In this document: positions 9,279 to 56,764 of the stretch, in pieces
Layout: the number at the start of each line of letters is the position of its first letter
How positions within the stretch are numbered: the stretch's first letter is position 1
Source of the DNA: Mycobacterium parmense
Lineage (GTDB): Bacteria; Actinomycetota; Actinomycetes; Mycobacteriales; Mycobacteriaceae
Assembly (NCBI RefSeq): GCF_010730575.1
Contig: NZ_AP022614.1
Location: 1,054,001-1,118,000, forward strand
Reading direction: 5' to 3'
Length of the DNA stretch: 64,000 nucleotides
Program-made: the position numbers and the translations under genes
The notes under the pieces: model-generated
Seen by the model: the letters and a program-made list of their open reading frames with translations, nothing else
Database searches by the model: none
Told to the model about the DNA's origin: nothing

Positions 9279-9316
9279 AAACGCGACGCTACTTTCTTTC
9301 GCGCCGAACGTGGGCC

Positions 9317-42086: not shown

Positions 42087-42308
42087 CTCACCAACACCCT
42101 TGGCTGACAGGAAGATCATCCAACTCCATCACCGTAATCTCGCCCGCGGTGCCGCGTCTTCGTCAACGCCATTTCGTCATGATTCGGTAAGAAGCTCCGG
42201 AGCTGGGCCTCGGATTGAGGCGCCATTGTTTCGTAAGAATTCGGGCCACCGTTCTCGACTAGCCTGGAGGCAGTAGAGCTGGCATGGACACTGACCGCGG
42301 GGCGCGTC

Positions 42309-42880
42309 GTGCGGAGATCGTCGAGAACCAACCCGATATGGGTGGCCGTGCTGCTGTGCGCGGTCAGCCTCCAAATCACCGCCTGCACGGGCCTGTTCGC
42401 CGGTCTGGGCAAAGCCGCGCCCGCAATGAACATTCCCGGGCCCGCCGTACATGAGCCTGTGGGTACTCAGGGCGCCCGCGAGACTGCGGTGCTGGCGACG
42501 GAGACCCACCTCGGCACCCGAACCGCAGTCAACTACGCCGGCCGGGGAGCCTACAAGCAGGGCACCGCCACGTTCGACTGCCCGCCCAACTCCCGGCCGA
42601 CGCCTTCGCCTTTCGCGGACGGTGGACCCTGGACCACCAGCCCGCGACCGCTGAAGACGACGACGACACCATCGCGCTCAACTACCACGCCCGCAACGTC
42701 TACCTGGTGGTCGGCGGCACCGGCACACTCACCGTGACTAAAGACGATGAGGCTAAACGACTCTCCGTGACTGGACCCCCCAAGATGCACCAGATCGTCG
42801 CCGACGACGCCGGCCGGAACGGGCATCTTGAGGTACGGTTGTCCAGGGGATTGCAGGCCTACTCTTTCACCTACGGCTGA
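42309..42880 (+). pseudogene. Lipoprotein with DipZ-type C-terminal domain, frameshifted
   Basis: The first frame encodes a signal with lipobox (VSLQITAC), then THLGTRTAVNYAGRG and YKQGTATFDC. After a one-base shift near 42583 the next frame continues LPAQLPADAFAFRGRWTLD, IALNYHARNVYLVVGG and GLQAYSFTYG, ending at 42880. These match the C-terminal beta-domain of DipZ-type CcdA-thioredoxin proteins. The CcdA and thioredoxin parts are absent, so it was probably a stand-alone lipoprotein. The frameshift suggests it is now inactive, unless it is a sequencing error. Confidence 0.7.
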
Positions 42881-42889
42881 GGACTATCG

Positions 42890-43012
42890 ATGCAAATGCT
42901 TCGATTTCGGACAGAACCGACGCGGCTCCCTACTTGCACGCTGCTGGTCATTGCGACGTTCAACCTCATCAGTGCCGCGTGCTACACCGCCAAAACGGTT
43001 CAGCCGCAGTAG
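42890..43012 (+). CDS. Possible 40-aa lipoprotein
   Basis: ATG at 42890, ten bases after the preceding stop, opens a 40-codon frame. A basic N-terminus (MQMLRFRTEPTRL) and hydrophobic stretch end in ISAAC, a lipobox-like site, with a ten-residue tail. No clear ribosome-binding site. It sits between the DipZ-domain lipoprotein and a Cys-rich lipoprotein, hinting at a small lipoprotein operon. Confidence 0.4.
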   Translation: MQMLRFRTEPTRLPTCTLLVIATFNLISAACYTAKTVQPQ

Positions 43013-43025
43013 AAAGGGGAGTCCG

Positions 43026-43388
43026 ATTAAATCTGACGCTAGCCGCGCGATCGTGCTCTGCGGTGGTATAGCCGCTCTTGTTTTGGCGGTCGGGTGCGGA
43101 GGTGGCGGTGGTATGTCGCCGAGCAGCACGACTGCACCGGCATCCACCACGACCAATTCGTCCGATGTGACGCCAGCACCGCCATCTGCAGCAACTTCCG
43201 GGGGTCCCACCGGCGGCCGAGGAGTCGGCGGCGCCTTCCCCGGACATCCCGTCATATGTTATGCCGGCCTCAACTGTGGTTGTATCCGCTACATCACCTG
43301 TTACCGCGGGCCAGCTCGGCTACCTCAAACTGCGGAGCCGCCAACTCCGCCACCGCCACAACGCCCTGATGAAGGACCGGATCCGTAG
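43026..43388 (+). CDS. Cys-rich lipoprotein with CGCI motif, probable ATT start
   Basis: About 120 aa. A signal sequence (SRAIVLCGGIAALVLAVGC) ends at a lipobox, followed by a Ser/Thr/Pro linker and the core [20 protein letters not shown], then a Pro-rich tail. The core is shared with the protein at 45770-46141 ([15 protein letters not shown]). No ATG/GTG/TTG stands at the right place; ATT at 43026 has AAAGGGGAG five bases upstream and gives a normal basic signal N-terminus. A GTG at 43051 is the alternative. No known family. Confidence 0.6.
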   Translation: MKSDASRAIVLCGGIAALVLAVGCGGGGGMSPSSTTAPASTTTNSSDVTPAPPSAATSGGPTGGRGVGGAFPGHPVICYAGLNCGCIRYITCYRGPARLPQTAEPPTPPPPQRPDEGPDP

Positions 43389-43603
43389 ACCGACGCCACC
43401 AGGCTGCGTAACTTACCCTGTCAGGCATCGACGCGATCGTGCCATGACCGGAAATCATCATGGTAGCAATGGATTTGGTACAGAACAATCTGAACTGGTA
43501 AACCGGCCTCCCCGGTCTACCCACCTCGGGAACCAACGTCTGGGCAAGGTCGCCTGCCCCGGCGACAACGATCGGTTGACACCCGAATCCCGCAAGGCCA
43601 GGA

Positions 43604-43619
43604 TGTACTAGTCAGTACA
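43604..43619. promoter_or_regulatory. Inverted repeat TGTACT-AGTC-AGTACA
   Basis: Six-base perfect arms, 37 bases before the SDR start. The same core TGTAC-N6-GTACA recurs at 52962-52979 upstream of a methyltransferase gene, so one regulator may bind both. Confidence 0.6.
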
Positions 43620-43656
43620 GCCGGGCGTGACACGTTATCCAAAACAGGAGGTCGTC

Positions 43657-44607
43657 GTGGTCCCCACTTCCGGAAGGGCGGCGTTAATCACTGGCGCGAA
43701 CACCGGCTTGGGAAAGGATCTGGCCCGGCGGTTGGCGGTGCAGGACAGCTTCGACAGGATCTACTTGGCATGCCGCAACGAAGTGAAGGGGCTGGCGGCC
43801 AGGAATGATCTGCAGACGATTACCGGCAAGGACATCTTCGAGGTCATCGTCATGGACATGTCTGACCTGGAATCGGTCCGCTCGGCGATCCCGGCAATCG
43901 ACCGACCGTTGGCCGCCCTGGTGATGAATGCGGGGGGGACCGGCGGGCCCAGGCCGACGGCGCTGACACGGGACGGTGTCACGCAGATCTTCGCCTCAAA
44001 CGTCTTGGGTCACGTCGTGTTGCTGGAGGAGTTGGTTGCCGCCGAAAGGCTCGAGGGTGTCGCCGTGCTCACCGGCAGCGAAGCCGCCCGTGGTGTTCCC
44101 AAGCTGCGTATCCCGCGGCCCAAGTTTGCGACGCATTCTGTCGAGGAGTTCGTGTCGGTGATTGACGGCTCGTTCTTCGGCGACCGAAAGGCCAGCGCGA
44201 TGCTGGCCTACGCGCAGGTCAAGTATCTCGGCGCACTGTGGATCGCGGCGCTGGCCCGCAAACAACCCGAGCGTCGTTTTATCACGATGAGCCCCGGCAA
44301 TACCTCAGGCACCGAGGCCTTGCGTGACCTGCCGACGCCCATGCGGATCTTTTTTCAGCATGTGTTGATGCCCTACTTGGCGCCGGCGTTGGGGATTGGG
44401 CACGGCCTCGAAGACGGCTCGGCTCGCCTGGCGGAGGCGGTGACCAATCCGTCTCTGCGCAGCGGCGTGTTCTACGCCAGTGCCGAGAAGGCTCTCACCG
44501 GGCCAGTGCTCGACCAATCCGAGATCCTTGCGGACTTCGCCGATCCGACGATCCAAGACCACGCCGACGAAGCGATCCACCGGTTCGTTATGTCTTCGAT
44601 CGGCTAG
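43657..44607 (+). CDS. SDR-family oxidoreductase (light-dependent-protochlorophyllide-reductase-like group)
   Basis: 316-aa SDR: AALITGANTGLGKDLARRL, ACRNEVKGLAAR, LVMNAGGTG and the Tyr-x3-Lys pair in AYAQVKYLGAL. The long C-terminal part (GVFYASAEKALTGPV) is typical of retinol-dehydrogenase/POR-like SDRs. GTG at 43657 is chosen because AGGAGG lies five bases upstream; an upstream GTG at 43627 lacks this. Downstream of a TGTAC-N6-GTACA palindrome. A nitroreductase-like gene follows. Confidence 0.87.
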   Translation: MVPTSGRAALITGANTGLGKDLARRLAVQDSFDRIYLACRNEVKGLAARNDLQTITGKDIFEVIVMDMSDLESVRSAIPAIDRPLAALVMNAGGTGGPRPTALTRDGVTQIFASNVLGHVVLLEELVAAERLEGVAVLTGSEAARGVPKLRIPRPKFATHSVEEFVSVIDGSFFGDRKASAMLAYAQVKYLGALWIAALARKQPERRFITMSPGNTSGTEALRDLPTPMRIFFQHVLMPYLAPALGIGHGLEDGSARLAEAVTNPSLRSGVFYASAEKALTGPVLDQSEILADFADPTIQDHADEAIHRFVMSSIG

Positions 44608-44684
44608 CGTGCGCACCTGCCGCCGCCCTCAAGGAGAATGGGGAAATTCATGGGCCACATGTCCTTTGCGATTGGCGCACCGCA

Positions 44685-45410
44685 ATGACCAATGCAGACC
44701 TGCACTTCTATTTTGATCCGGTCTGCCCGTTCGCGTGGATAACCAGCAAGTGGGTGCGCATGGTGGCCGCGCAACGCGACTACCGCGTCGACTGGCGGTT
44801 TATTTCGCTACGGATCCTCAATGCCGGCATCGACTACGACACGCACTTCCCCGCGGGCTACGAAGACGGGCACACCGCCGGGCTGAAACTTCTGCGGGTT
44901 GCGGCCAGGATTCGCGCTGAGTATGGCCGCGCAGTTATCGGGCCGTTCTACGAGGCCATCGGCCGCAGAACCTTCGACACCGGGCCCGGCGATCGCCCAA
45001 TCGTCGCCGCAGCTCCCGGTTCGAGTGCCTTCCTGGAGCCGATCCTTCAGGACATGGGCTTGCCCACTGACCTATCAGACGCATTGGGGGATAGCGCGTT
45101 TGATACCGAACTGCGCGCGGAAACCGAGGAGGCCCTGGCGTTGACGGGACGAGACGTCGGCACTCCCATCCTGCACTTCCGCCCACCCGGGGGCGTCGCG
45201 TTCTTCGGGCCGGTCATCAGTCGGCTGCCTGGCGACGAGGAGGCGGGCTTGCTGTGGGACCACGTCGTGGGGCTAGCCAGCTTCCCCGGATTCGCCGAAC
45301 TCAAGCGCAGCCTGCGCGAACGACCCCAACTGGCCGGTTTTGACGTGCCGGCCGAATCGGTAGGCGTGCAGGAGGACTGGCACGGGGGCAGCCGGCGGAT
45401 CAAAAAATAG
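44685..45410 (+). CDS. DsbA-fold mycothiol-dependent nitroreductase-like protein (Rv2466c-like)
   Basis: 241-aa thioredoxin/DsbA-fold protein. The active-site loop is FYFDPVCPFAWITSKWV with a single Cys, as in the mycothiol-dependent reductase Rv2466c (CPWC there). GTPILHFRPPGGVAFFGPVISRLP gives the cis-Pro region. Such enzymes reduce nitro-compounds or handle thiol adducts with mycothiol. Loss of the second Cys suggests a monothiol mechanism. It follows the SDR by 77 bases in the same direction. Confidence 0.83.
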   Translation: MTNADLHFYFDPVCPFAWITSKWVRMVAAQRDYRVDWRFISLRILNAGIDYDTHFPAGYEDGHTAGLKLLRVAARIRAEYGRAVIGPFYEAIGRRTFDTGPGDRPIVAAAPGSSAFLEPILQDMGLPTDLSDALGDSAFDTELRAETEEALALTGRDVGTPILHFRPPGGVAFFGPVISRLPGDEEAGLLWDHVVGLASFPGFAELKRSLRERPQLAGFDVPAESVGVQEDWHGGSRRIKK

Positions 45411-45435
45411 CTCTGCGGCGCTGGCCCGAGACGCG

Positions 45436-45699
45436 TCAGCGTCGGAGCTCGATCCACCCGTCGAGCGCGGCACGGTCCATCGAGAACGGCATGCGATCAG
45501 CCGGCCGAGGCCTTGCAAGATGAGGCATCACATTGCGCCACAGGTACGACGAGGTCGGGTTGTCGAACTGGAACACAATCGCGTCGCCGTCGCCCTCGTC
45601 GATGTAGGCCATTTTGCTGCCGTGAATTTCTCGATACTTCGATTTAACGAACGGTGTTGTCCCGAAAATGATTTCGTCGCTCTCCGGTTCGTGATGCAT
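45436..45699 (-). pseudogene. Truncated haloalkane dehalogenase (inverted partial copy)
   Basis: The first 60 codons match the intact dehalogenase at 49148-50068 almost exactly ([44 protein letters not shown]). Then a one-base insertion shifts the frame, and about 45 bases later similarity ends. The HGNP oxyanion motif is FDNP here. The nucleophile Asp, acid and His are all missing. Orientation is opposite to the intact copy, together with the shared TetR promoter region. Confidence 0.85.
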
Positions 45700-45738
45700 C
45701 GGTCCGAATCCGCCTGCGTAGGACAGCGGACTGTTGAC

Positions 45739-45748
45739 TGACCGGTCA
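45739..45748. promoter_or_regulatory. TGACCGGTCA palindrome (copied TetR/dehalogenase operator)
   Basis: Perfect 10-base palindrome within the duplicated divergent promoter, identical to 49099-49108. It now lies between a dead dehalogenase fragment and the chimeric lipoprotein gene. Confidence 0.6.
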
Positions 45749-45769
45749 ACTAGCGGTAGCGTCGGCCGC

Positions 45770-46141
45770 GTGCCAAAGTCGTCGGACACCCGCGAGCGCC
45801 TGGTGTCGGCGGCGGCCTCACGCGCAGGTGCTGGCTTGTTCGTCTTAATCGTCGTTGGATGCGGTGCAATTGCCGGTGGCGGGTCGCAAAGCGGGGCGCC
45901 CAGACCTACCACGGTGACCGCATTGTCCAGCGAAACACCATCGTCCCCAAACGATCCCGGCGACCCTGCCGGAGGCGGAGCCTTGCCAGTACATCCAATT
46001 ATGGGATGCTATATCGGCCTCAACTGTGGGTGCATTCGTGGCTTCACATGTCCTGGCACTATCCCGCACCACCACCATCCCGCTCCCACAAATGACCAAC
46101 CGCACGGTGCTCCTGGCGGCGCCCCCGGCGGTGGGGGCTGA
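45770..46141 (+). CDS. Chimeric Cys-rich lipoprotein with TetR-derived N-terminus
   Basis: The first 16 codons ([16 protein letters not shown]) equal the start of the TetR gene at 48469-49077. At SRA the sequence switches to a lipoprotein: hydrophobic [10 protein letters not shown] with lipobox, Ser/Pro linker, and the core [20 protein letters not shown] shared with 43026-43388, then a His/Gly/Pro tail. The fusion supplies start codon, promoter and operator from the tetR copy. The frame is open for 123 codons. Whether the new N-terminus allows export is unclear. Confidence 0.6.
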
Positions 46142-46166
46142 CGCTGGCCGCTGAGGTCAGCAGGCG

Positions 46167-46274
46167 CTAGTGTCGTGAGTCATTAATTCGGCTGTTCTTA
46201 TTAGAATGGGGTGATGCCGTCGCCGCGTGCCCATCAGCAACTACTGCCGACGAATTAATGACTCAGGACACTAG
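46167..46274. mobile_element. 108-base MITE-like element with 24-base terminal inverted repeats
   Basis: Left end begins CTAGTGTCGTGAGTCATTAA. The right end is its inverse complement with one mismatch (G/C at position 9) over 24 bases. TA dinucleotides inside CTAG at both ends fit TA target use, as in IS630/Tc1-type elements. The 50-base centre has a short frame MPSPRAHQQLLP, perhaps the start of the parent transposase. Non-autonomous. Confidence 0.75.
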
Positions 46275-46406
46275 GTCCGCACCGCCACCGTCGACAGCAG
46301 ATCGGCGAGCCGGTCCGGCCGGACGTTGGCGGAGTACTACGACGCCGATGATGTTTACTGCTTGAGTAATTGGACTGGCAGAGAAGCCCCGGATGACCTT
46401 CTCGCT

Positions 46407-47069
46407 CTAGGGGACCCGAAGGATGGTGGTAGCGGACCGCTTGACCGCGGCGGTTCGGATTTCGGCCACCTCTGCGTACGCCTGGTTTGTCACTAGGTCG
46501 AACAGCGCCTCTTTGGAGGGATAGTTCCCCAGGAAAACTAGATCAGGTAGGAAATCGTCGTCGTAGGCCAGGTCAGGTAGGAACCGAGGGAAAACGTAGC
46601 GGCCTGCGACAGCTTTGACCATAGGCGCTGCTGCCGCAAGGTATTCGTCGTACCGCTGCCGTCCGCCCTCGTGGAACCACAGAATATTCAGTACGACGAC
46701 ACCGCTGTCGAGCAATGCTGCACCGCTGTCAGCCGGCTCAATGGCACAACGCGTGAGCACCGCCCGGTGGACAGCGTCGGTGCGTAGATGCGCGATACGC
46801 CGATAGCGTTCACTGCGCCACATCTCGTCGAACGCCGTTGCGGACGGGTACCGGACGAATCCCACCAAGTCGGGATCAAAATCACCCTCAAGCGATTCCT
46901 CCACTTGCAGAAACGGGGTCGACAGTTCGGCGCCAACCTCGGCCAACATGGGAAGGACAGCCGCGCCGTATTGTCCGTAAAGTTCCATTCCGCCAGGCCT
47001 AAACCACAGCGCATTCAGCATTGCGACAGGGCCGCCCGATCCGCAGCTCGCAGTCGGTGTTTCGCTCAT
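46407..47069 (-). CDS. Tandem DUF1330/EthD-like protein
   Basis: 220-aa protein made of two related halves of about 100 residues: ALWFRPGGMELYGQYGAAVLP / ILWFHEGGRQRYDEYLAAAAP and DLVGFVRYPSATAFDEM / DLVFLGNYPSKEALFDL. Each is a ferredoxin-like alpha-beta barrel of the DUF1330/EthD kind, so one chain can mimic a dimer. Its start overlaps the stop of the subfamily-III dehalogenase by four bases, indicating coupled expression. It may bind or process a dehalogenase-related product; that is inference. Confidence 0.78.
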   Translation of the reverse strand: MSETPTASCGSGGPVAMLNALWFRPGGMELYGQYGAAVLPMLAEVGAELSTPFLQVEESLEGDFDPDLVGFVRYPSATAFDEMWRSERYRRIAHLRTDAVHRAVLTRCAIEPADSGAALLDSGVVVLNILWFHEGGRQRYDEYLAAAAPMVKAVAGRYVFPRFLPDLAYDDDFLPDLVFLGNYPSKEALFDLVTNQAYAEVAEIRTAAVKRSATTILRVP

Positions 47070-47950
47070 CTGTCTTTCTCTCCCTCGTCGTCGGCTCCTC
47101 CGAAGCGCTGGATGATCGCTTCCGCGATGGCGTCAGGTGCGTCCTCCTGAATGAAGTGGTTCGCCTGCGGGAGGCGGATCAATACGTTGTCGGGGAAGGC
47201 GCCTTGTAGCCGGCTGAGCACCGCAGCGAGCCCGAACGCAGGGTCTTTCATGCCCCAGACAAACAAGGCGGATTTGGAGCCGAGTCGGCTGGGTACGTCG
47301 CGGGCCAGCCGTTCGAGCAGTGGGCGGGCTGCGCGGATCTCCCTGGGGAACTCGGCGATGCCGCGCCGTGCGGCCGGTGATGGTTGGACATCGCGATAGT
47401 GCTGCATGACGGCATCGGTTGGTTTCTGGGAAACCGCGAAGGGAAGAAATTCGACAAAGAGGTTGCGGTGCAAGACAAGATACTGCATGGGCCAGGAGCT
47501 CATCACGATGCTGAAGAGCTTGAGTCGCCACCCGTCCGAGGGCCAAAACCAGGTGTTGCCCAGCACCACGCCTCGGACGGTTGCGTGACGCTCCGTGGCG
47601 ATGGCCATGCTGACCGGGCCACCCCAGTCCTGCCCCATGGTGATGAACCCGTCGAGGTTGAGATGGTCCAGCCATTCCCCGACCGCGGCGACGTGTTCCT
47701 CGACGGTATAGCCGAAATCACTGGGGTGCTCCGAGAGCCCGAATCCCAGATAATCGACAGCGATGCAACGGAACTCGCCGCGAAGTCGCGTGATGATGTT
47801 GCGGTACAGGAAGCTCCACGTCGGATTTCCATGAAAGAATATGATCGGGGTTCCGTGGCCCTCGTCGATGTAGTGCATTCGTCCGTAGCGGCCGTCGAAC
47901 CATCGCGATTCGAACGGATATAGACTTCGGTCCACGGTGAACTCATGCAT
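47066..47950 (-). CDS. Haloalkane dehalogenase, subfamily III-like (DmbC-type)
   Basis: 294-aa alpha/beta hydrolase with haloalkane dehalogenase residues: HGNPTW with halide-binding Asn42, nucleophile Asp108 and Trp109 in GQDWGG, catalytic acid Asp236 (VWGMKDPAF) and His265 (NHFIQED). GNTWFWPSDG, VQPSPAARRGIAEFP and the acid after strand 7 resemble DmbC/Rv1833c. It would hydrolyse carbon-halogen bonds in haloalkanes; native substrates of these mycobacterial enzymes are unknown. Third gene of a probable operon tetR-membrane protein-dehalogenase-DUF1330. Confidence 0.88.
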   Translation of the reverse strand: MHEFTVDRSLYPFESRWFDGRYGRMHYIDEGHGTPIIFFHGNPTWSFLYRNIITRLRGEFRCIAVDYLGFGLSEHPSDFGYTVEEHVAAVGEWLDHLNLDGFITMGQDWGGPVSMAIATERHATVRGVVLGNTWFWPSDGWRLKLFSIVMSSWPMQYLVLHRNLFVEFLPFAVSQKPTDAVMQHYRDVQPSPAARRGIAEFPREIRAARPLLERLARDVPSRLGSKSALFVWGMKDPAFGLAAVLSRLQGAFPDNVLIRLPQANHFIQEDAPDAIAEAIIQRFGGADDEGEKDR

Positions 47951-47984
47951 CGGGATAGGCTGACCTTTCTATAGAATTGGTTTC

Positions 47985-48434
47985 TCAGAAGGATTTTCGG
48001 ACTCGCAGCGCCAGGCCCCCGGCTGTCGCAAAGACGACGGCCGATAAGATGTCCAGGAGTACGACCACCCAGGAGAAGGCGGACACGTGGCGGTCTGGTG
48101 GCGCATCGATAAAGCTGTCGCTCAACGGGCCAAACCAGGCGGGGAGCACGTGCTGGAGAATGAAGCCAGCGGCGTTGACGCTGCCGACCACTACCGCGGC
48201 CAGCGGCGCCCAGCGACTTCGTGTCGCGACCAGGACCACAGCAAACACGACCAGTAGGGTCTGAACTGTCCCGATCGCGATAATTGGAAGCGGTTCAAAG
48301 TCGAGCCCGCGGCGCAGGTGATCGACTCCGTGGACGAAATACACCGTCACAAACACCGCGGCGGTCAGCCGCAACATCGAAGCCACCTTCGGGGCGGATC
48401 CGAGCTCTGACAACACTGGTGTCGTTTTAGTCAT
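47985..48434 (-). CDS. Four-helix membrane protein
   Basis: 149-aa protein with four hydrophobic segments (LRLTAAVFVTVYFV, IAIGTVQTLLVVFAVVLVA, APLAAVVVGSVNAAGFIL, FSWVVVLLDILSAVVFATAGGLAL) and a HGVDHLRRG loop. No family name is certain. ATG at 48432-48434. It lies between the TetR and dehalogenase genes with 34-base gaps on both sides, so it shares their transcript. It could assist uptake or efflux of a halogenated substrate or halide; that is inference. Confidence 0.75.
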   Translation of the reverse strand: MTKTTPVLSELGSAPKVASMLRLTAAVFVTVYFVHGVDHLRRGLDFEPLPIIAIGTVQTLLVVFAVVLVATRSRWAPLAAVVVGSVNAAGFILQHVLPAWFGPLSDSFIDAPPDRHVSAFSWVVVLLDILSAVVFATAGGLALRVRKSF

Positions 48435-48468
48435 GCCAGCCCGGATCTGCGACTTCGGCAGGGGCGCC

Positions 48469-49077
48469 TCATGAGGAAAGTCCGCCCTCGGAGAGGTAGG
48501 CGGCCACAAAGTCGTGCAGCGCGGCCGGGATACCAGCAACACCAGCATCGTTGAGTTTGGCGAGCAAGGTCACGCCTTGGTATTGGGCGAGCAAGTGGTG
48601 GGCCAACTGATCGGGATCGACGCCTTCTCGAAGAGCCCCCCGCGCGGCGGCCTCACGGCACAGCAGCGCCAAGCCCTCTTCCATTGCCGCGAAACACTGC
48701 GCGATATGCGCACGCACAGCGTCGTCTGTGGTCGACAACTCGGCCGCCAGGTTGCCGAACGGGCAACCTACGGCCCGACCGAATTGCGATTCGAAATCGG
48801 CCTGAATGGCTCCGATCATGTCGGGAATCGCACGCAGGCGCCGAACGGGGTCGTCGTCCACAAAGTCGGCCAGCCGTACCGCATAAGTGACGGCGTGCAG
48901 GTCGATGACCGCGTTGGCAAGGTCACATTTCGACGAGAAGTAATAGTAAAAGCTGCCCTTGCGGGCATCGGCGGCCGCGCATATCTCATCCACCCCGACA
49001 GCCTGATAACTGCGCTCCAGAAACAACCGGGCCGCCGCCGACACAAGGCGCTCGCGGGTGTCCGACGACTTTGGCAC
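48469..49077 (-). CDS. TetR-family repressor of the dehalogenase divergon
   Basis: 202-aa TetR protein: [37 protein letters not shown] and a C-terminal domain with [14 protein letters not shown], shared with the other two TetRs of this region. GTG at 49077 starts just before the first helix; a TTG 12 codons upstream is possible. The divergent dehalogenase starts 70 bases away, with the palindrome TGACCGGTCA between. It heads the minus-strand operon and likely represses both directions. Confidence 0.88.
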
Positions 49078-49098
49078 GCGGCCGACGCTACCGCTAGT

Positions 49099-49108
49099 TG
49101 ACCGGTCA
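49099..49108. promoter_or_regulatory. TGACCGGTCA palindrome in the TetR/dehalogenase promoter
   Basis: Perfect 10-base palindrome inside TTGAC-N6-GTCAA, 21 bases from the TetR start and 39 bases from the dehalogenase start. An identical copy exists at 45739-45748 in the duplicated segment. Confidence 0.65.
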
Positions 49109-49147
49109 GTCAACAGTCCGCTATCCTACGCGGGCGGATTCGGACCG

Positions 49148-50068
49148 ATGCATCAAGAACCGGAGAGGGACGAAATCATTTTCGGAACAACACCTTTCGG
49201 TAAATTGACGTATCGTGAAATTCACGGCAGCAAAATGGCCTACATCGACGAGGGCGACGGCGACGCGATTGTGTTCCAGCACGGCAACCCGACGTCGTCG
49301 TACCTGTGGCGCAATGTGATGCCTCATCTGCAAGGCCTCGGCCGGCTGATCGCGTGCGATCTGATCGGAATGGGGCATTCGGACAAGCTCAGCCCATCCG
49401 GACCTGACCGCTATCATTACGCCGAGCACCGCGACTACCTATTCGCGCTTTGGGAGGCGCTCGACCTCGGCGACAACGTGATCCTGGTGATTCATGACTG
49501 GGGCTCGGTGCTTGGCTTCGACTGGGCCAACCAGCACCGTGACCGCGTGCAGGGCATCGCCTACATGGAAGCCATCGTCGCCCCGCTGCGGCCGTCGGAT
49601 TTCACCGCCGACGCGCCGGCCTTCGACATCTTCTCCGCGGCGGGTGAGCAGATGATGCTGGAACAGAACCTCTTCGTCGAAGCGATGCTGCCCGCCCAGA
49701 TCCTGCGTGATCTCACCGACGAGGAGATGACGCACTACCGGCGGCCTTTCCTGAACGCCGGTGAAGACCGGCGCCCCACGTTGTCGTGGCCGCGCGACAT
49801 TCCGATTGGGGATCGGCCCGCTGACGTCGTCGCGGTCGTGAACGACTACGCCACCTGGCTCGCAGCCAGCGATGTTCCGAAGTTGTTCGTCAACGCCGAA
49901 CCGGGCACCATCCTTAACCGACGCCCACGTGAGCTCGTCCGCCGCTGGCCCAACCAAACCGAAATCACCGTTCCAGGAATGCATTTCCTTCAAGAGGACA
50001 GTCCCGACCAGATCGGCACCGCAGTCGCTGATTTCGTGCGGCAACTGCGTCCCACGTCGCACGGCTAA
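49148..50068 (+). CDS. Haloalkane dehalogenase, subfamily II-like (LinB/DmbA-type)
   Basis: 306-aa enzyme closely resembling LinB and Dmb[13 protein letters not shown] carries halide-binding Asn47. Nucleophile Asp117 and Trp118 lie in [11 protein letters not shown], the acid is Glu141 (YMEAIV, after strand 6 as in subfamily II), and the base is His279 (GMHFLQED). [15 protein letters not shown] and [11 protein letters not shown] are near-invariant family segments. ATG at 49148 fits the known length. Hydrolysis of broad-range haloalkanes is expected. Divergent from a TetR gene and convergent with the subfamily-I enzyme. Confidence 0.92.
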
Positions 50069-50101
50069 AACACAAAGGCATCGCGAGCTTATTCGAACCA
50101 G

Positions 50102-51028
50102 TCAGGCGCACTGGGTCGATTGGGGAGTGGACTCGACGAACCGGGTCACGGCGGCGGCGAGTTCAACACCCTTGTCTTCTTGAAGGAAGTGTCCAGCGTT
50201 TGTGATGGTCACCGGGGGATGCCCTGCGGCACCGGGGATTTCCGCGCGGAACACCGCATCGGCGCCTCGGGTGATGGGGTCTGAGTCGGAGAAGGCGCAG
50301 AGAAACGGCCGATTGAACTGGCGCAACGAGTCCCAGGCGGCCCGGTTTGCCGCGGAGGCGGGATCTTCGGGGGCGATCGGAACCAGCAAGGGGAATTGTC
50401 GGGCACCCGCCTTGAAGGATTCGTCGGGAAACGGGGCGTCGTAGGCGGCGATGACCTCGGTGCTCAGGTCGGACACGCAGGCGCCGTTGACGATCCGGCC
50501 GGCATTGAACACGGGTGTCTCCTGGCTATACCGTTGCCAGGCCAGGAATGCCTTTCCCGGGTGTGTGTCGCCAGTCGGCAGAAACGTGTTCGCAGCGACA
50601 ACCCGGGCGAAGCGCTCGGGGTGTTCACCAACCAGGCGCAGGCCAATGAGTCCGCCCCAGTCCTGGCACACCAGGGTGATCGCATCAAGGCCGATCGCCT
50701 CAACGGCCGCCCATGTCCAGTCCACATGCGCCTGGTAGGTGTAGTCGTCGCGACTGGCAGGCTTGTCGCTGCGCCCGAAACCAACCAGATCGATGGCAAC
50801 CGCCCGTAACCCCGCATCGGCGAGCACTGGGATCATCCGACGGTATAGGTAGGACCACGATGGTTCGCCGTGTAGCAACAGAATCACCTCACCGTCGCGT
50901 GGGCCCTCATCGAGGTAGTGCACACGCAGCATGCTTCCGTCGGTGGCAGCTACCTCCACGTAACGCGGTTGGAATCCGTAGTCGGGCAACGCGTTGAATC
51001 GCTCATCGGGGGTTCGCAGGATCTGCAC
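50102..51028 (-). CDS. Haloalkane dehalogenase, subfamily I-like (DhlA/DmbB-type)
   Basis: 308-aa enzyme of the DhlA/DmbB (Rv2296) group. HGEPSWSYLYR has Glu55 in place of the Asn of other subfamilies. Nucleophile Asp123 and Trp124 lie in CQDWGGLIGL, the acid is Asp250 (FSDSDPIT) and the base His280 (AGHFLQED). The length and long cap region (LAWQRYSQETPVFNAGRIVNGA) fit. It converges with the subfamily-II gene, with 33 bases between stops. A TetR gene lies 409 bases upstream on the same strand. Confidence 0.9.
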   Translation of the reverse strand: MQILRTPDERFNALPDYGFQPRYVEVAATDGSMLRVHYLDEGPRDGEVILLLHGEPSWSYLYRRMIPVLADAGLRAVAIDLVGFGRSDKPASRDDYTYQAHVDWTWAAVEAIGLDAITLVCQDWGGLIGLRLVGEHPERFARVVAANTFLPTGDTHPGKAFLAWQRYSQETPVFNAGRIVNGACVSDLSTEVIAAYDAPFPDESFKAGARQFPLLVPIAPEDPASAANRAAWDSLRQFNRPFLCAFSDSDPITRGADAVFRAEIPGAAGHPPVTITNAGHFLQEDKGVELAAAVTRFVESTPQSTQCA

Positions 51029-51437
51029 GGTCGGCTCCTTTTCGCCGTCGTCCTCGGCTGTTGAGCGCGATGGGCCGGGCTCACAACGAGGTCAAATCCG
51101 AGGCAGCTGCGTTTTCGCAGCAGCCGTCATGTCCAGTCAGCAGTTTCACGAACATGAGGTCGACGCACCTTGTTTCAAAACGTCAACATTCGCCGCCACG
51201 TGCTGATGTGGCGAAAGGGGCCCGCGAACAGCTGACGCGGCCGGACGCCACTTCGGCCGCCTAAACCCGTTATCTCGCATGCCTGCCACGGGTTGCTCAG
51301 TCGTTGCTTCCAATCTCCCGTGCACCACACCCAGACTGTACCGCACGGTATAACGTCATCAAGAAGCTCTTCCTTGACTGGGTAGGTTTAACACCTCGCT
51401 AACAGAACCTGCACCGGGCGCCATGTTCCTTGAGCGG
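51029..51437. other. 409-base upstream region of the subfamily-I dehalogenase
   Basis: No gene. Contains an inverted repeat TACCG-CA-CGGTA (51339-51350) in AT-richer sequence, and a CTGCG-TTTT-CGCAG hairpin near 51107-51120. The first could be an operator for the upstream TetR or the dehalogenase promoter. Confidence 0.45.
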
Positions 51438-52094
51438 TTAGCGTGCCCGCGGCTTTCGCGTGGTGGCTTTACGTTCCCATTGATGCAGCTGCACCACGGC
51501 GCTGAAGAGCGTGTCCTGCAAGGGAGCGACATCGCCGCGGACCCGGGCGAGCAACATACCGCCCTGCAACGCGGCGATCACCGCGGTCGCAAGTCGGGCA
51601 GGGTCAGCCTCGGCGACCAGGCCACCGCGGTCCTGGATCCTCTGCAGCCCCCTCGCCAACGCGGCTTCCCACCGGCGAAATGCGGCATCAAGTAGCGGCG
51701 CAAAGGCTTTGTCGTTCTTCAGTTCTGAGGCCATCGTCCCTAGGGGACAAGCAAATGGACCTCCCGGCGCGCTGTGTATAGCCAGTACGCCTTCGACCCA
51801 ACCATCGATTCCCTCCCACGAGTCGATGTGTTCCAACGTGGGCTGCTGGGCGAGAACCAACTCCAATTGCCTCTCGATCACCGCTGCAACCAGGTCGGCT
51901 TTGCTATCGAAGTAGTGGTACAGCTGAGACTTACCTGCACCGGCGGCGGCCAACACATCATCGAGGGTGGTCAGCCCGACACCGCGCTGATACATCAGCA
52001 TGGCCGCAGCGTCGATGATTGCGGCACGGCTGCGCCTGCCCCGTTCCGTTACCGGCAGGGGGCGTGCCGTCGAGGAGCGCGCCGACACAGACAC
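51438..52094 (-). CDS. TetR-family repressor
   Basis: 218-aa TetR regulator. HTH is AAMLMYQRGVGLTTLDDVLAAAGAGKSQLYHYFDSK, C-terminal domain has FACPLGTMASELKND, the same subgroup as the TetRs at 36401 and 48469. GTG at 52094 is one of three nearby GTG choices. It precedes the subfamily-I dehalogenase on the same strand and is a plausible regulator of it. AT-rich symmetric sequence ACTC-TATAT-GAGT lies just upstream. Confidence 0.84.
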   Translation of the reverse strand: MSVSARSSTARPLPVTERGRRSRAAIIDAAAMLMYQRGVGLTTLDDVLAAAGAGKSQLYHYFDSKADLVAAVIERQLELVLAQQPTLEHIDSWEGIDGWVEGVLAIHSAPGGPFACPLGTMASELKNDKAFAPLLDAAFRRWEAALARGLQRIQDRGGLVAEADPARLATAVIAALQGGMLLARVRGDVAPLQDTLFSAVVQLHQWERKATTRKPRAR

Positions 52095-52189
52095 AATTCC
52101 CACTCTATATGAGTTGCGAATCAGCGCAGCGGCGCCGCCGCCACTGACCGGAGAAGTCACAAACGGGCTTCCAACCAATATCTTGTGCG

Positions 52190-52867
52190 CTAATCACGAC
52201 TCCCGCCCGGCGTTGCCGCGTGCAGCACGGCGATCACACGGTGATCGAAATCGACGATACTGCTGACCAGTAATCCGGCGGCGATGGCGAGGTCGCCGAG
52301 TGCGGCTGCGTTGACCCGTGACCAGGGAAACCACTGCCCGACATGATGTTCGGTTTCCCAGCGCAGTATTTCGTGACACGCCGCTGTCGTCGGCGGGTCG
52401 ACCTCGGCAACGACGATCCCGCCGGGCGCGAGCAGCTCAACGGCGCGCCTGAGTGTCCGGACGGGGTCTCCGCCGATGCCGATGTTGCCGTCGGTGAGCA
52501 GAATCTGTTCCCAACAGCCTTCGGCGGGCAACGGTGCGAAAAGGTCAGCGTGAATTGCGGTTCCACCACGATCACGCGTCAGATCGACGGCGGCGCGTGA
52601 GGCGTCCACGCCCAATGCAGCCCAGCCGCGCTCTCGCAGCGACGCGGTGAATCGTCCGGGGCCGCATCCGAGGTCCAGGGTTGGCCACGCCGAGCAGCGC
52701 CGCAGAACGTGCCCATCGGCGAGCCGATCGCGGTGGCTGGCGTGCGGGCCTCCGATCCAACGGGTCATGGGCAGCTCTCGCACGTGCCCGCGATCGTCGC
52801 GAGCCCAGCACACGGCGCCCGCTGCGCCTGCACGATAGATCAGATCCACGGGTTCCTGCGCGGGCAT
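52190..52867 (-). CDS. Class I SAM-dependent methyltransferase
   Basis: 225-aa methyltransferase. SAM motif TLDLGCGPGRFTASL, acidic loop GVDASRAAVDL and LAPGGIVVAEVDPP are clear. ATG at 52865-52867 is set by a strong GGAGGAGG four bases upstream. Possible substrates are small molecules; halide or thiol methylation is conceivable in this context but not indicated by sequence. A TGTAC-N6-GTACA palindrome lies 95 bases upstream. It precedes the TetR and dehalogenase genes on the same strand. Confidence 0.83.
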   Translation of the reverse strand: MPAQEPVDLIYRAGAAGAVCWARDDRGHVRELPMTRWIGGPHASHRDRLADGHVLRRCSAWPTLDLGCGPGRFTASLRERGWAALGVDASRAAVDLTRDRGGTAIHADLFAPLPAEGCWEQILLTDGNIGIGGDPVRTLRRAVELLAPGGIVVAEVDPPTTAACHEILRWETEHHVGQWFPWSRVNAAALGDLAIAAGLLVSSIVDFDHRVIAVLHAATPGGSRD

Positions 52868-53359
52868 CGAACCTCCTCCCGTCTGAATCATCCCGGCTTA
52901 GTCCCAATCCATCGCCGCGTCGCCGCCATCTTGGCTGACCCAGTGGTCAGAGGGAATCGTAGTGTACCGGACAGTACACGATGAGGTTTCTTTGTTGGTT
53001 CTTGAGTCGGGGGGTAGACCTGCCGTCGAGGCCGGCGGGCTTCCCCGGCCAGGTCCATGAGCCGGCGCAGCAGGCTCAAGTCGACAGTCGGTAGCCGGAC
53101 ACCGTTGGTGACGACGAACCGAGGATGCAATGCACAATCCGTTGCCGTGTTGTGCCGTCATTTCACGTTGCAGCATCGGCGGTTTGGAATCACGATTCCG
53201 ATAAGCAAGCGCAGCTTGAAACAGTCTGGCAGACAACATGATAACGGTTAGATTTTCACTGCGGGCAGGAGACGCCGCCGACCGTCTCGCATAATTGATC
53301 GGCGGTCCTGGGGTCGACCACTTGTCAAGCCCATCGGGCCGGCTGCGCCCGCTGATTTG
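52868..53359. other. 492 bases upstream of the methyltransferase, no assignable gene
   Basis: Contains the GTGTAC palindrome (own entry). A minus frame (52888-53130) reading RLPTVDLSLLRRLMDLAGEARR is open but not recognised. Toward 53.36 kb a vapC relic begins. Confidence 0.4.
52962..52979. promoter_or_regulatory. Inverted repeat GTGTAC-CGGACA-GTACAC
   Basis: Six-base perfect arms around six bases, 95 bases upstream of the methyltransferase start. The core TGTAC-N6-GTACA matches the site before the SDR at 43657. Confidence 0.6.
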
Positions 53360-53654
53360 AAGGCGGTCTGGTTGCCACGAGAGCACCGCTGAATGCCGAA
53401 GCGCTCACAGTGCCCGCGGGCCGGCCGAATACGAACAGCTCTGGGCGGACCGCCACACCGCCTACGAGTATCTGCCGACCAATGCTGCATTGGCGGGCAC
53501 ACAGGGCGCCTTGGCGCGAACCGGCCAGCATCGAGCCGTCGGAGTTGCCGCCGCGCACCAGATCACCGTGGTCCACCACGACGCCGGCGTTGAAACGGCC
53601 GCACTCGTATTGACGTTCCAGCACCGGTGGGTAGTACCGCGAGGGAGCATCTGA
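53360..53654 (+). pseudogene. VapC-type PIN-domain toxin fragment
   Basis: From 53403 an 83-codon frame encodes the C-terminal part of a VapC-like protein (PAEYEQLWADRHTAYEYLPT, GQHRAVGVAAAHQITV, AALVLTFQHRWVVPRGS). Upstream, in another frame, are bases resembling the preceding segment (APLNAEAL). The N-terminal Asp region is missing and the DxxI/A motif is altered (AAHQI). A non-functional relic with no intact antitoxin next to it. Confidence 0.65.
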
Positions 53655-53752
53655 GCGCCCATCCGCCGGTCGGGATCCAATTTTGGATAATGAGGCCGGT
53701 CGGACGCGGCACGACTTGCACAAGCTCCGACACCGCTACGGCGCCAGCCAAG

Positions 53753-54211
53753 TCACGGCTGTGCGGTGTCGGCTTGCCCTGGGATCCGGCGTCGGTTGCC
53801 CCGATAAACTTGGTAGAGATTCACGATCGCCAAGAACATAACGAACAGCGGGATGAATGGTGGCTTTATCCCTAGGGGCAAAACATTCGCCGGCACTTTC
53901 GGCTGTAAATGCACGTAGGTCGCAATTCCCATGTTGACGACAAGTGCGGCTGAGGCGAGGAACACGACCGGGCCATAGACCTTCGGAATACTCCGCCTGT
54001 AGAAGGTCGGCAACAGCAAACCAAGGCCGATGGCCATCTCGCCGGGTTTACCGAGGGGGATGCTCATTCGCGGCAGGCCACTCTCGGTGATCTGCACATC
54101 AAACATGGTTCGAAACGGGTCAAAATATTTCAAGAACCCGAACATAAACATAAACACACCAAGAAATATCGAGTTGTATTTCAATAGCTTGTTCTCTTGT
54201 ATTTGATTCAT
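53753..54211 (-). CDS. DoxX-like membrane protein
   Basis: 152-aa protein with four hydrophobic segments (SIFLGVFMFMFGFLKYF, EMAIGLGLLLPTFY, VYGPVVFLASAALVVNMG, FIPLFVMFLAIVNLY), in the arrangement of DoxX-type proteins. ATG at 54211 has GAAGGA five bases upstream. The first 100 bases are markedly AT-richer than neighbouring genes, suggesting foreign origin. Function unknown; DoxX relatives take part in redox or thiol-stress responses. Confidence 0.7.
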   Translation of the reverse strand: MNQIQENKLLKYNSIFLGVFMFMFGFLKYFDPFRTMFDVQITESGLPRMSIPLGKPGEMAIGLGLLLPTFYRRSIPKVYGPVVFLASAALVVNMGIATYVHLQPKVPANVLPLGIKPPFIPLFVMFLAIVNLYQVYRGNRRRIPGQADTAQP

Positions 54212-54494
54212 AGATTCCTTCCGATATATCAGATCTATCAATTCGGGTTTGGACAAGGTTGTTGCCGCCCGACTGGATTGACAGGCCAAATGTTACGGTC
54301 CAAAGCCGCCGGGAGCGGGTGATTACCGCGGTTGCTTGTGTCCCTCAGGCCCGAGCGCTGGGCGGGGTGATCGCGCCAACAGCGGGAACGTCAATCCGGG
54401 GGAACGGCTGGCCGTTTGAGCGCGACATCGAAGTCTTTCAACGCGATGTGTTGTCCGCACTGGGACATCATGCTGACTAGAAATTGGACCGACA

Positions 54495-54640
54495 ATGCCA
54501 ATTCAGATGTGTCCGGCCGTGGCGTCAAAACAGGGTCGTTCTGCCCGGCGGCTGACGGCCCGTGGAGCGGCTGCCAGAGCCCGCATAGAAGCCACATCGC
54601 TAGTACGGGAGCGTGGCGTGGCAGGAACGACCCTCGGCTC
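54495..54640 (+). pseudogene. TetR N-terminal fragment
   Basis: The frame reads RSARRLTARGAAARARI and ATSLVRERGVAGTTLGSL, a TetR helix-turn-helix start with one codon missing before EATS. After about 45 codons it turns into unrelated sequence. No ligand domain follows. A truncated regulator. Confidence 0.55.
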
Positions 54641-54976
54641 GCTCGTCAGCGAACGCGCCGACCGATCCGACTCCGCGAGCCTCGAACGCGCCCCGAACGG
54701 GCGGGGCCGAGGCCAGGGGAGTGGCGGACAACCCAAAACAATCACGGCCAATCTGGACCCCGCCCGCACGCTCGACATCGGCCGCAGGAGCCGGGTCTGC
54801 GAGGTGTCGCGGATCAGCGAATCTGCAACTGATCGGAAATGATCAGCTCGACCTGCCGCTTGCATGACTCTTTCATGCTGGACAGGTGTCCAGTTATGCT
54901 TTCATTAAGGCATCAATGTTTCTTTCCCTGGGCGGTAGGCCCTGAGCGGTACACAGACAACGAGAGGAATGCGGAC

Positions 54977-55405
54977 ATGAGTGGTGTTCCCAGCCGTCAG
55001 GCTCGATTGGCGCACGCGGCGAAGCACGCCGAACTGTGGAACGCGGGGAAGAAAGACGAATGGGTGGCATCGTGGCGCACGATCTGCCCTGGCGAGGTGC
55101 GCATGTTCGATCCGGTCGGCACGGAGGAGAAGCGCGGCTTCGAAACCGCTACATCGGAGGCGTTCGACATGTTCCAGTCCATCCTCAAGATCAAAATGAT
55201 CACAGTCCAAGTGAACGGCGACGAGATGGCGTGGACCTGTGAGAATCACTTTGGCACTGAGCCGAACGTTGAAATGGCTTATAGCATCGAAACATTCGCG
55301 TGGGACGGCGACGGAAATCTGCTGATCAAGACCTACTATCCGATGCCTGAGACCGTCGGCTCCGACAGCGACCCCTACGCTCACCTTCTCGAGGGTCGGG
55401 AGTAG
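54977..55405 (+). CDS. NTF2/SnoaL-like protein
   Basis: 142-aa protein. The cone-shaped alpha+beta fold of the NTF2-like superfamily is suggested by HAELWNAGKKDEWVASWRTICPGEVRMFDPVG, MAWTCENHFG and YSIETFAWDGDGNLLIKTYY. Such proteins are small-molecule isomerases, hydrolases or binding proteins. ATG at 54977 has GAGAGGA about nine bases upstream; the longer frame is excluded. It stands alone between relics. Confidence 0.7.
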   Translation: MSGVPSRQARLAHAAKHAELWNAGKKDEWVASWRTICPGEVRMFDPVGTEEKRGFETATSEAFDMFQSILKIKMITVQVNGDEMAWTCENHFGTEPNVEMAYSIETFAWDGDGNLLIKTYYPMPETVGSDSDPYAHLLEGRE

Positions 55406-56124
55406 CCCTGCGGCGGCGGTGCAGTCCACCAGTTCCGCATACGTCCTCGCGACCGCGATCCGACGGCCGCCAAGTAAATTGCGAAAACCGCCAGACGCAA
55501 TGAGACCGGACATCGATTATCGACGAGCGAAATCCATTGGGCTACCACGCAATGGCTTACCTGACATAATGTCGCTTATCGGCAAAAGCCCATGCTGCGT
55601 GCTTTAGACGAGAGTGCTCGCACACGTTGGCGGTTGGCCCATCTGCGCAGTTCTCGGCGCTGTTCCGACGCCTACAGTTCCGAACGAGACGCTGCGGTAG
55701 TTGTGCAGACGCCTAGGCCGGCCGATCTTTCAATCCACTAGTGAATGATTCGGGTGTTAGGTGAAGTCTTGAGCGAGCCCCGACCACCCGGCGGCGCAGC
55801 CGGCAGCCCACCGCCCGCCTCAACCTGCCGCCGGGCCGCGTGCAATACGTCACTGTGACGAATTGTATTCGTGCGGCGGTCTTCTGAAGCTCCGGGTCGG
55901 GTTCTCGATTATCAAGCACCGCGGCCGCAGATCCAGCAGCACGTACGAAACCGTCGTGACTGCCTGGGTGCCGCGGATGACGCGCCTGGCGGACGGTGAG
56001 AAATCGGTCCTTGTCGCCGACATCGCCTGACCCGCGGCTTATCCCCTACACGGCATTCGCTGTCGAATACGCGTCCTTTTCGGAACCAGTTAGCGGCAGT
56101 GCGAGAACACCTGGGAGCGCTCGC
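55406..56124. other. About 720 bases of decayed sequence
   Basis: A plus frame ending TAWVPRMTRLADGEKSVLVADIA (stop near 56030) looks like the C-terminus of a lost gene but is not assignable. A 13-base palindrome CGTCAC-T-GTGACG lies at 55848-55860. No intact gene. Confidence 0.45.
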
Positions 56125-56350
56125 TTAGCGTGCGGCGCCATACGGTGCGCTGTCGAAGCGAGCACGTGCAGCATGGATATCAGAATAACGGGTATCGGCC
56201 CAATCGATGAGGCTCGCCATCGGCTCCAGCAGGGATTGGCCCAACGGGGAAAGGCGATATTCAACGCTCGGCGGCTTGGTTGGAAAGACATGGCGCCACC
56301 TTGCTCAAGCCATTCGATGATCCGGGAAGGCGACGAAGGCGACGCGGCGG
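56125..56350 (-). pseudogene. HxlR-family regulator, C-terminal fragment
   Basis: On the minus strand one frame encodes PPSVEYRLSPLGQSLLEPMASLIDWADTRYSDI followed by a tail and TAA at 56125-56127, the C-terminal half of an HxlR winged-helix protein. The N-terminal recognition helix is missing. Written as two pieces it is PPSVEYRLSPLGQSLL and EPMASLIDWADTRYSD. A relic beside the intact vapBC pair. Confidence 0.65.
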
Positions 56351-56368
56351 GCCATACCACTGATTTTT

Positions 56369-56764
56369 CTAGACGTGGATGATGGTGACGCCGGCGGCGT
56401 CGGCGAGCGTGTCAAAGTCATCGTCTTGGGTGACCACTGGCAGGCCTTGGGAAGTCGCGATTGCGGCGATCCACAAATCGTTGATGCGGATCCGGCGGCC
56501 AGTTTCGGCGAGGTGGATCCGCAGGCGTGCCCATGTCCGTGCGGCGTCTTCGTCGACGGGCAGCGCGGTCATGTCGGCTACGGCGTCTAGCGTCGCGAGC
56601 CGTTGTGCTCGAATGTTAGCGGTGGCGGCGGCGAGCACGCCGGCGTTGAGCTCCGCCAGGGTGATCACCGTGGTGGCGACTTCGTCTGGAATGCGGGTTT
56701 GGTCGAGTTGGCGGCCGCTTTCATGAGCGATGAATACTGATGTGTCGACGACACCGGCGGTCAT
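56369..56764 (-). CDS. vapC: VapC-type PIN-domain ribonuclease toxin
   Basis: 131-aa PIN protein. Metal-binding acids are visible: Asp7 (VVDTSVFIA), the Glu in TLAELNAGV, Asp in INDLWIAAIA and the acid run QDDDFD. VapC toxins cleave RNA, often tRNA or rRNA. Its start overlaps the stop of the antitoxin gene by four bases, the usual antitoxin-first order. No damage seen. Confidence 0.9.
   Translation of the reverse strand: MTAGVVDTSVFIAHESGRQLDQTRIPDEVATTVITLAELNAGVLAAATANIRAQRLATLDAVADMTALPVDEDAARTWARLRIHLAETGRRIRINDLWIAAIATSQGLPVVTQDDDFDTLADAAGVTIIHV

Follow-up and report, generated by a model that had tools for sequence, protein, structure and literature searches.

Haloalkane dehalogenases (HLDs) are known from several settings that bear on the locus described here. 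The gene linB on catabolic plasmids represents a recent adaptation to man-made halogenated pollutants, DhaR/DhaA of Rhodococcus is a case in which a TetR regulator accompanies a dehalogenase, and in Mycobacterium tuberculosis DmbA, DmbB, and DmbC presumably lie at separate loci. In a 64,000-nt stretch of the 5.95-Mb genome of Mycobacterium parmense (the window, to which all coordinates refer), three complete open reading frames (ORFs) encode intact HLDs, one each from subfamilies III, II, and I, here called HLD-III, HLD-II, and HLD-I. As judged from sequence comparisons, they probably belong to a horizontally acquired, inducible organohalide-hydrolysis cluster composed of at least two separately regulated modules, one with the regulator TetR1 and the other with TetR2. 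The biological role of HLDs is described as still poorly understood (PMC10619424).

HLD-II resembles LinB and DmbA in its Asn-Trp halide pair and Asp-Glu-His triad, with 65% identity to a plasmid-borne linB and 72–74% to five listed matches carrying a Mycobacterium name. It differs from linB, over the 1.1 kb of linB context compared, in being divergent from TetR1 and lying beside HLD-III and HLD-I. HLD-I is 74% identical to the enzyme of M. rhodesiae JS60 (structure 4mj3, which we take to be DmrA, with JS60 as its source), where a TetR2 homolog (61%) also lies directly upstream (L019), but the 20.9-kb JS60 locus holds neither HLD-II nor HLD-III. On pDCA of Xanthobacter flavus EL8, a TetR gene likewise adjoins HLD-I and is divergent from it, with one HLD in the stretch viewed compared with three in the cluster. 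HLD-III shares the Asn-Trp pair and Asp-Asp-His triad with DmbC-type enzymes (61–67% identity to one mycobacterial gene set and 39–43% to a second), whereas it falls in a separate clade, overlaps a DUF1330 gene, and scores under the cut-off of the DmbC model.

The initial annotation had placed one enzyme in each of the three subfamilies, and profile models, structure matches, catalytic residues, and phylogeny bore this out. Each of the three proteins has its highest score with a different NCBIfam dehalogenase model, and HLD-II (NF002938, 415.8 bits, cut-off 241) and HLD-I (NF002043, 479.5 bits, cut-off 265) pass. The nearest solved structures are 8ooh and 8ckp for HLD-III, 7pw1 (AncLinB-DmbA) followed by 2o2h and 2qvb for HLD-II, and 4mj3 for HLD-I; 8ckp is DhmeA (PMC10503415) and 2qvb is DmbA (PMC8584953). 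In an 11-row alignment, no nucleophile, acid, base, or halide-binding residue is missing from any of the three enzymes, in agreement with the earlier reading of a nucleophile Asp-Trp, an acid, and a His in each. With the DhlA row as reference, HLD-I (Asp123, Trp124, a second Trp in an LAW motif aligned with the AW of DhlA, Asp250, and His280) has the Asp-His-Asp triad and Trp-Trp halide pair of subfamily I. The pentad of HLD-III (Asn42, Asp108, Trp109, Asp236, His265) gives an Asp-His-Asp triad with an Asn-Trp pair, which is the subfamily III pattern taken from the DhmeA pentad (PMC10503415), and that of HLD-II (Asn47, Asp117, Trp118, Glu141, His279) gives the Asp-His-Glu triad and Asn-Trp pair of subfamily II (PMC10619424). 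A maximum-likelihood tree of 52 proteins holds the three enzymes apart with strong support, so that no two of them share a subfamily: the HLD-II clade, including LinB, is supported at 100/100, the HLD-III clade at 100/96, and the HLD-I side is separated at 100/99, the exception being a weak link of HLD-I to DhlA (84/55). Cluster-type HLD-III proteins form a clade of their own (97/96), with a protein named from M. simiae among its members. All three enzymes are predicted to hydrolyse carbon-halogen bonds (EC 3.8.1.5). The fourth HLD of the genome, an HLD-I paralog 53% identical to the cluster HLD-I, is distant, at 812 kb.

We then asked how common such a gathering is. In a genus sample of 198 genomes, that of the window included, HLD-II was found in 28 genomes (E ≤ 1e-80), HLD-III in 59 (E ≤ 1e-60), and HLD-I in at least 149 (E ≤ 1e-80). 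Fourteen other genomes have both HLD-II and HLD-III; in six of these, 440 kb to 3.2 Mb of a single contig separates the two genes, and in eight they lie on different contigs, where adjacency across contig ends is possible. On these distances we rejected the idea that an HLD cluster is typical of mycobacteria. The distance count took in HLD-II and HLD-III, and the linkage of HLD-I was judged from 120 fetched neighbourhoods of other sites, 80 around HLD-I (GTDB collection) and 40 hand-chosen around HLDs, TetR1, or DUF1330. An HLD match at E ≤ 1e-20 is present in 118 of them; some are short, L022 is the same contig as L194, and one surrounds the paralog of the M. parmense genome itself. Two HLD subfamilies occur together at E ≤ 1e-20 in none of the 120; relaxing the threshold brings up a second hydrolase, weakly matched (23–33%), in L189, L190, and L199. 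The gathering is an unusual one. A tandem HLD-I pair (63% and 50% identical to the cluster HLD-I) was seen in an Alcanivoracaceae genome bin (L042:10001-11858).

When 396 genus genomes were searched for close HLD-III relatives (E ≤ 1e-134), matches besides the window came from G284 (93%) and G316 (91%), and within this sample the cluster is common only to the window genome, G316 (all three HLDs), and G284 (HLD-I and HLD-III). The G316 cluster contains HLD-I (91%), HLD-II (95%), HLD-III (91%), TetR1 (96%), TetR2 (94%), DUF1330 (93%), and a methyltransferase (93%). G284 has HLD-I, HLD-III, TetR2, DUF1330, and the methyltransferase at 91–94%, plus a short-chain dehydrogenase (SDR) and an Rv2466c-like gene, without HLD-II and TetR1. 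The P0145 search for cluster-type HLD-III in 397 genomes of the order (E ≤ 1e-132) has the window genome and G316 among the matches listed. A molybdopterin oxidoreductase gene (PF00174) that stands directly after HLD-I in G284 and G316 is missing in the window, which explains the 33 bp between HLD-I and HLD-II; the reported spacing of the three genes within 4 kb is therefore real but partly reflects this missing gene.

The protein database searches, of which the best 120 matches of each list were taken, suggest an older linkage. For HLD-II P0006 (77%) and HLD-III P0145 (78%), the longest contig listed is 138,851 bases in both cases, and for HLD-II P0033 (71%) and HLD-III P0148 (73%) it is 94,439 bases; the equal sizes suggest that each pair lies on one contig. 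P0006 and P0033 fall in the clade of the cluster HLD-II (100/98) and P0145 and P0148 in that of the cluster HLD-III (97/96). Neither size is listed for HLD-I among its best 120 matches. HLD-II P0021 and HLD-I P0301 both list 4,336, which may be chance. No published title or abstract opening among the matches listed describes such a cluster, a weak negative given that subscription papers are mostly beyond reach.

Pfam matches support the two TetR genes beside the HLDs and the tandem DUF1330 protein of the initial annotation. Both regulators match TetR_C_13 and TetR_C_13_2, with a different best match for each. Among the eight TetR1 homologs in the fetched loci, seven (L163–L169; 60–67% identity) each form a divergent pair with an HLD-I type gene whose product is 45–48% identical to the cluster HLD-I. 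The one gene tested, that of L163, was confirmed by NF002043, and the seven genes form a clade with one plasmid HLD (100/96). The palindrome TTGACYGRYCRGTCAA lies between the TetR1 homolog and the HLD-I type gene in 7/7 of these loci, and it should be noted that the pattern was written from them, so that their agreement is partly by construction. The eighth homolog (L170, 57%, no HLD adjoining), which was not used for the pattern, has the motif directly upstream. Across the fetched loci, which total 2.46 Mb with overlaps counted, all exact sites are at a TetR1 gene or at an inverted copy, described below. With up to one mismatch, the M. parmense genome has exactly two sites, at 49098 and in the inverted copy at 45734. 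G316 has one exact site at the equivalent place plus two with one mismatch, which mean little because a reversed control pattern gives 1–2 sites in each of four other genomes (0 in the window genome). The palindrome is absent from the genomes of G284 and of G136, a further genome with a related neighbourhood, and no DNA match to TetR1/HLD-II was found in G284 or in the fetched 13 kb of G136. With its TetR_N and C-terminal domains and a conserved palindrome at the divergent promoter, TetR1 is predicted to be a TetR repressor with its own operator.

A promoter scan gave TTGACC-18-TATCCT towards HLD-II, with the first box inside the palindrome. In the other direction, TetR1, a small membrane protein (no Pfam match), HLD-III, and DUF1330 run on one strand, with gaps of ~35 bp at the proposed starts and then an overlap of 4 bp between the HLD-III stop and the DUF1330 start, which is also found in G284 and G316. 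One repressor could therefore govern HLD-II and HLD-III together. A TetR2 homolog adjoins HLD-I on six other contigs, upstream on five (L014, L019, L022, L023, L198) and downstream in L192. The cluster seems to comprise two units of regulation, one of TetR1 with HLD-II and HLD-III and one of TetR2 with HLD-I. The single dedicated operon or pathway of the initial annotation is not supported, given the two units, the membrane protein that is fragmentary in G284 and G316, and the methyltransferase that also occurs on two plasmids with no HLD in the 11 kb viewed of each; what stands of its specialised pathway with own regulators is the regulators beside the HLDs.

In the mechanism we propose, TetR1 would bind the 16-bp palindrome, which overlaps the -35 box of HLD-II and a TetR1-facing TTGACT box. 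In the absence of inducer, it would shut off HLD-II in one direction and, in the other, the operon that begins with TetR1 itself and continues through the membrane protein, HLD-III, and DUF1330 (Module A); in Module B, HLD-I would be governed by TetR2, which lies upstream of it. The repressors would be released by an organohalogen or by the alcohol formed from it, and the HLDs, with different active-site geometry, would hydrolyse different haloalkane ranges to alcohol and halide. The neighbouring SDR and Rv2466c-like protein could handle products or electrophilic stress. The presence of a TetR1-type regulator and its palindrome beside HLD-I in some mycobacteria and beside HLD-II in others suggests that a common signal is sensed. 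With the palindrome confined to the cluster in this genome and different subfamilies seemingly under one regulator, the compound that releases TetR1 would offer a direct clue to what these enzymes naturally act on.

The divergence of the cluster argues for horizontal acquisition. Synonymous divergence (dS) of seven cluster genes among the window genome, G284, and G316 is 0.12–0.28. A second, DmbC-like HLD-III elsewhere in G284 and G316 has a dS of 0.78 between them, compared with 0.23 for the cluster HLD-III in the same genome pair, indicating that the cluster moved horizontally. Four further control genes (putative orthologs; 5534-6973, 9941-10315, 10363-10875, and 60536-61213) give 0.36–1.00 against the window genome and 0.43–0.72 between G284 and G316; two others were left out (8544-9773, where nonsynonymous divergence (dN) exceeds dS and the frame is probably wrong, and 61384-62883, with no usable match). 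DNA matches longer than 300 bp outside the cluster are at 64–80%. The cluster seems to be younger in common than the genomes, and horizontal transfer accounts for this most simply. The dN/dS of the three HLDs is 0.11–0.20, indicating purifying selection on all three.

The cluster lies in a stretch of lower G+C: between 10 and 58 kb, with the exception of 28–32 kb, 2-kb bins have values of 0.59–0.67, compared with 0.68–0.71 over the initial 10 kb. The final 4 kb of the window give 0.64–0.66 as well, leaving the right edge of the stretch ill-defined. The same stretch holds a phage-type integrase gene (20453-21550) and a Mutator-family transposase fragment (15641-16129). A tRNA-Ser gene lies ~3 kb from the cluster in G284; no tRNA was found in the window, and Rfam gave no match in 41000-56500. 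A plasmid origin was rejected after a megablast of the whole region against plasmids, which gave only two Streptomyces records covering 2%, and a phage origin after two viral-contig scans that yielded no relative.

Several observations weigh against the inducible, horizontally acquired cluster proposed here. HLD-III narrowly misses the cut-off of 466 of the DmbC equivalog model NF002873 (450.5 bits), as do its relatives in G284 (447.5) and G316 (449.6), and we assign it to subfamily III by tree and pentad without filing it as DmbC. HLD-III enzymes have moreover been described as weak dehalogenases (PMC10503415). Since G284 keeps HLD-I and HLD-III without HLD-II and TetR1, the three HLDs need not act together. 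The promoter-like site towards HLD-II is within chance level (2 found in 7 kb, 1.5 expected), and the TetR1-facing TTGACT box was read by eye and is absent from the scan list. On the operon strand, TetR1 contains two terminator-like sites and the membrane protein gene one, in a region where such sites are not above chance (4 found, 5.3 expected). No shared palindrome was found as an operator of TetR2. The slow gene rpoB has a dS of 0.30–0.37 against the window genome and 0.28 between G284 and G316 (DNA identity 90–92%), barely above the cluster maximum. The case for transfer is therefore carried by the remaining controls and by the rarity of the cluster, and vertical descent with many losses is a formal, less likely alternative.

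Among the other explanations, we leave appreciable, though clearly lesser, room for HLD-III being a different hydrolase, for example an OleB-like beta-lactone decarboxylase working with the DUF1330 protein, with only HLD-I and HLD-II acting as dehalogenases. The 4-bp overlap with DUF1330 in three genomes and the retention of HLD-III where HLD-II is absent (G284) are in line with this. OleB is marked by its olefin-pathway partners OleA, OleC, and OleD beside the gene, but a scan covering only the neighbourhood found no such partners among the neighbouring genes, and HLD-III sits after TetR1 in the unit opposite HLD-II. Its five HLD residues are intact, although OleB-type members have them too (PMC10503415).

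It is rather unlikely that the three HLDs are chance neighbours, collected singly by a plastic island and sharing neither a pathway nor a signal. The modules are separate, each having a regulator to itself or counterparts in other loci, and the contents differ in the three genomes, where the HLD-II unit is absent from G284, the molybdo-oxidoreductase is missing in the window, and an MDMPI_N gene is broken in the window and G316; the integrase and transposase matches would suit such an island as well. However, none of the 120 neighbourhoods combines two subfamilies, the contig sizes shared by HLD-II and HLD-III of the cluster clades suggest old linkage, and HLD-III follows TetR1, opposite HLD-II, in both the window genome and G316. 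Purifying selection on the three HLDs also speaks against chance, though alone it is no proof of joint function.

A more specific version of the proposed cluster, in which HLD-II and HLD-III are an old pair under one TetR and operator that acts on one natural organohalogen, seems to us quite doubtful; if true, the identity of that organohalogen would supply the missing native role of these enzymes. A recent origin of the cluster under pressure from man-made halogenated pollutants, as for linB on catabolic plasmids, is improbable: it would agree with the signs of horizontal spread and with the plasmid location of linB and the pDCA dehalogenase, but the plasmid search gave nothing beyond the two Streptomyces records, no complete catabolic pathway was recognised beside the cluster, and the dS values, together with the 71–78% identity of related HLD-II and HLD-III, look older than industrial haloalkanes.

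Table 1. Features of the dehalogenase cluster and its immediate surroundings.
Feature	Position	Strand	Basis or remark
Short-chain dehydrogenase (SDR)	43627..44607	+	Pfam PF00106
Rv2466c-like protein, mycothiol-dependent nitroreductase family	44685..45410	+	PF22234
Relic, 3' end of MDMPI_N (mycothiol transferase-like) gene	45436..45487	-	DNA match to G284; residues by eye
Inverted partial copy of TetR1/HLD-II divergent promoter and first codons of both genes	45489..45817	-	95% identity
Second TetR1 palindrome, unaltered	45734..45749	.	One of two sites in 5.95-Mb genome
Tandem DUF1330 protein	46407..47069	-	PF07045 in two stretches
HLD subfamily III	47066..47950	-	NCBIfam, structure match, tree, residues
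Small membrane protein	47985..48434	-	Start uncertain (ORF opens at 48548); hydrophobic segments, four helices in the initial annotation, identified by eye
TetR1 regulator	48469..49077	-	PF00440 and PF16925; GTG start proposed, ORF opens at 49113
Proposed TetR1 operator TTGACCGGTCAGTCAA	49098..49113	.	Left end is first box of TTGACC-18-TATCCT promoter-like site towards HLD-II
HLD subfamily II, LinB/DmbA-like	49148..50068	+	NCBIfam, structure match, tree, residues
33-bp gap between HLD-II and HLD-I	50069..50101	.	PF00174 gene directly after HLD-I in G284 and G316
HLD subfamily I	50102..51028	-	NCBIfam, structure match, tree, residues
TetR2 regulator, upstream of HLD-I, same strand	51438..52178	-	Pfam; homolog adjoins HLD-I in other contigs
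Class I S-adenosylmethionine (SAM) methyltransferase	52190..52891	-	Profile match; relatives on plasmids

The accessory genes have relatives in several settings. The SDR has a 93% ortholog in the G284 cluster and was not found in 40 kb of G316, the Rv2466c-like protein has relatives in G284 (94%) and G136 (71%), and of the membrane protein only a fragment remains in G284 and G316. Relatives of the methyltransferase and molybdo-oxidoreductase sit together with glycosyltransferases on a Rhodococcus plasmid and on a M. abscessus plasmid, where the glycosyltransferase is of the TIGR04282 type and a haloacid dehalogenase lies ~3 kb away; no HLD was found in the 11 kb viewed of each. This absence of an HLD weakens a role of the methyltransferase in a dehalogenation pathway. 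In favour of such a role are the haloacid dehalogenase gene near its M. abscessus relative, pMAC109a, where such a methyltransferase lies ~11 kb from an HLD-I, and the gene set of G136. This genome combines, within ~8 kb, HLD-I (78%), TetR2 (72%), the methyltransferase (62%), MDMPI_N (52%), the Rv2466c-like protein (71%), and the molybdo-oxidoreductase (72%), indicating that part of the association is older. The mycobacterial plasmids pMK12478 (L211) and pMAC109a (L234) carry an HLD-I, 48% identical to that of the cluster, with TetR and SDR genes nearby, in surroundings that also hold two sigma factor/zf-HC2 pairs and redox proteins.

To the left of the operon, the initial annotation had noted a dead partial dehalogenase copy at 45436-45699. 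The copy is real but is not merely a dead HLD, as it consists of an inverted TetR1/HLD-II promoter copy and an adjoining MDMPI_N relic. The 329-bp inverted copy corresponds to 49030-49357, where TetR1 and HLD-II both begin, with the palindrome in between. Its -10 box towards HLD-II is TGTCCT, not TATCCT, and the palindrome is intact. The relic corresponds to the 3' end of an MDMPI_N gene of which G284 has an intact version (L205:16636-17382); the DNA match is 92% and reaches 45487, and 11/12 of the last residues agree by eye. A tblastn search with the G284 MDMPI_N protein listed no match in the window, and G316 retains a 32-residue fragment. The small ORF at 45734-46141 has its start fused to a piece of TetR1 and might now follow the copied palindrome; by eye, it has a motif in common with the ORF at 42828-43388. 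A ~108-bp element resembling a miniature inverted-repeat transposable element lies at 46167-46274, with inverted ends TGAGTCATTAATTCG at both sides, and among 232 loci this motif was found only in the window genome's own loci.

Two further observations concern the rest of the window. At the left edge of the lower-G+C stretch, two adjoining ORFs (9941-10875) have carbohydrate-binding matches, to CBM_14 (no stretch passing alone) and CBM_2. At 28802-31771, a 989-aa protein with TIR_2, nSTAND1, and WD40 matches looks like an NLR-like NTPase; the PADLOC models gave no match for it, and tandem DNA repeats of 129 bp at 27936-29215 cover its C-terminal end and the next ORF.

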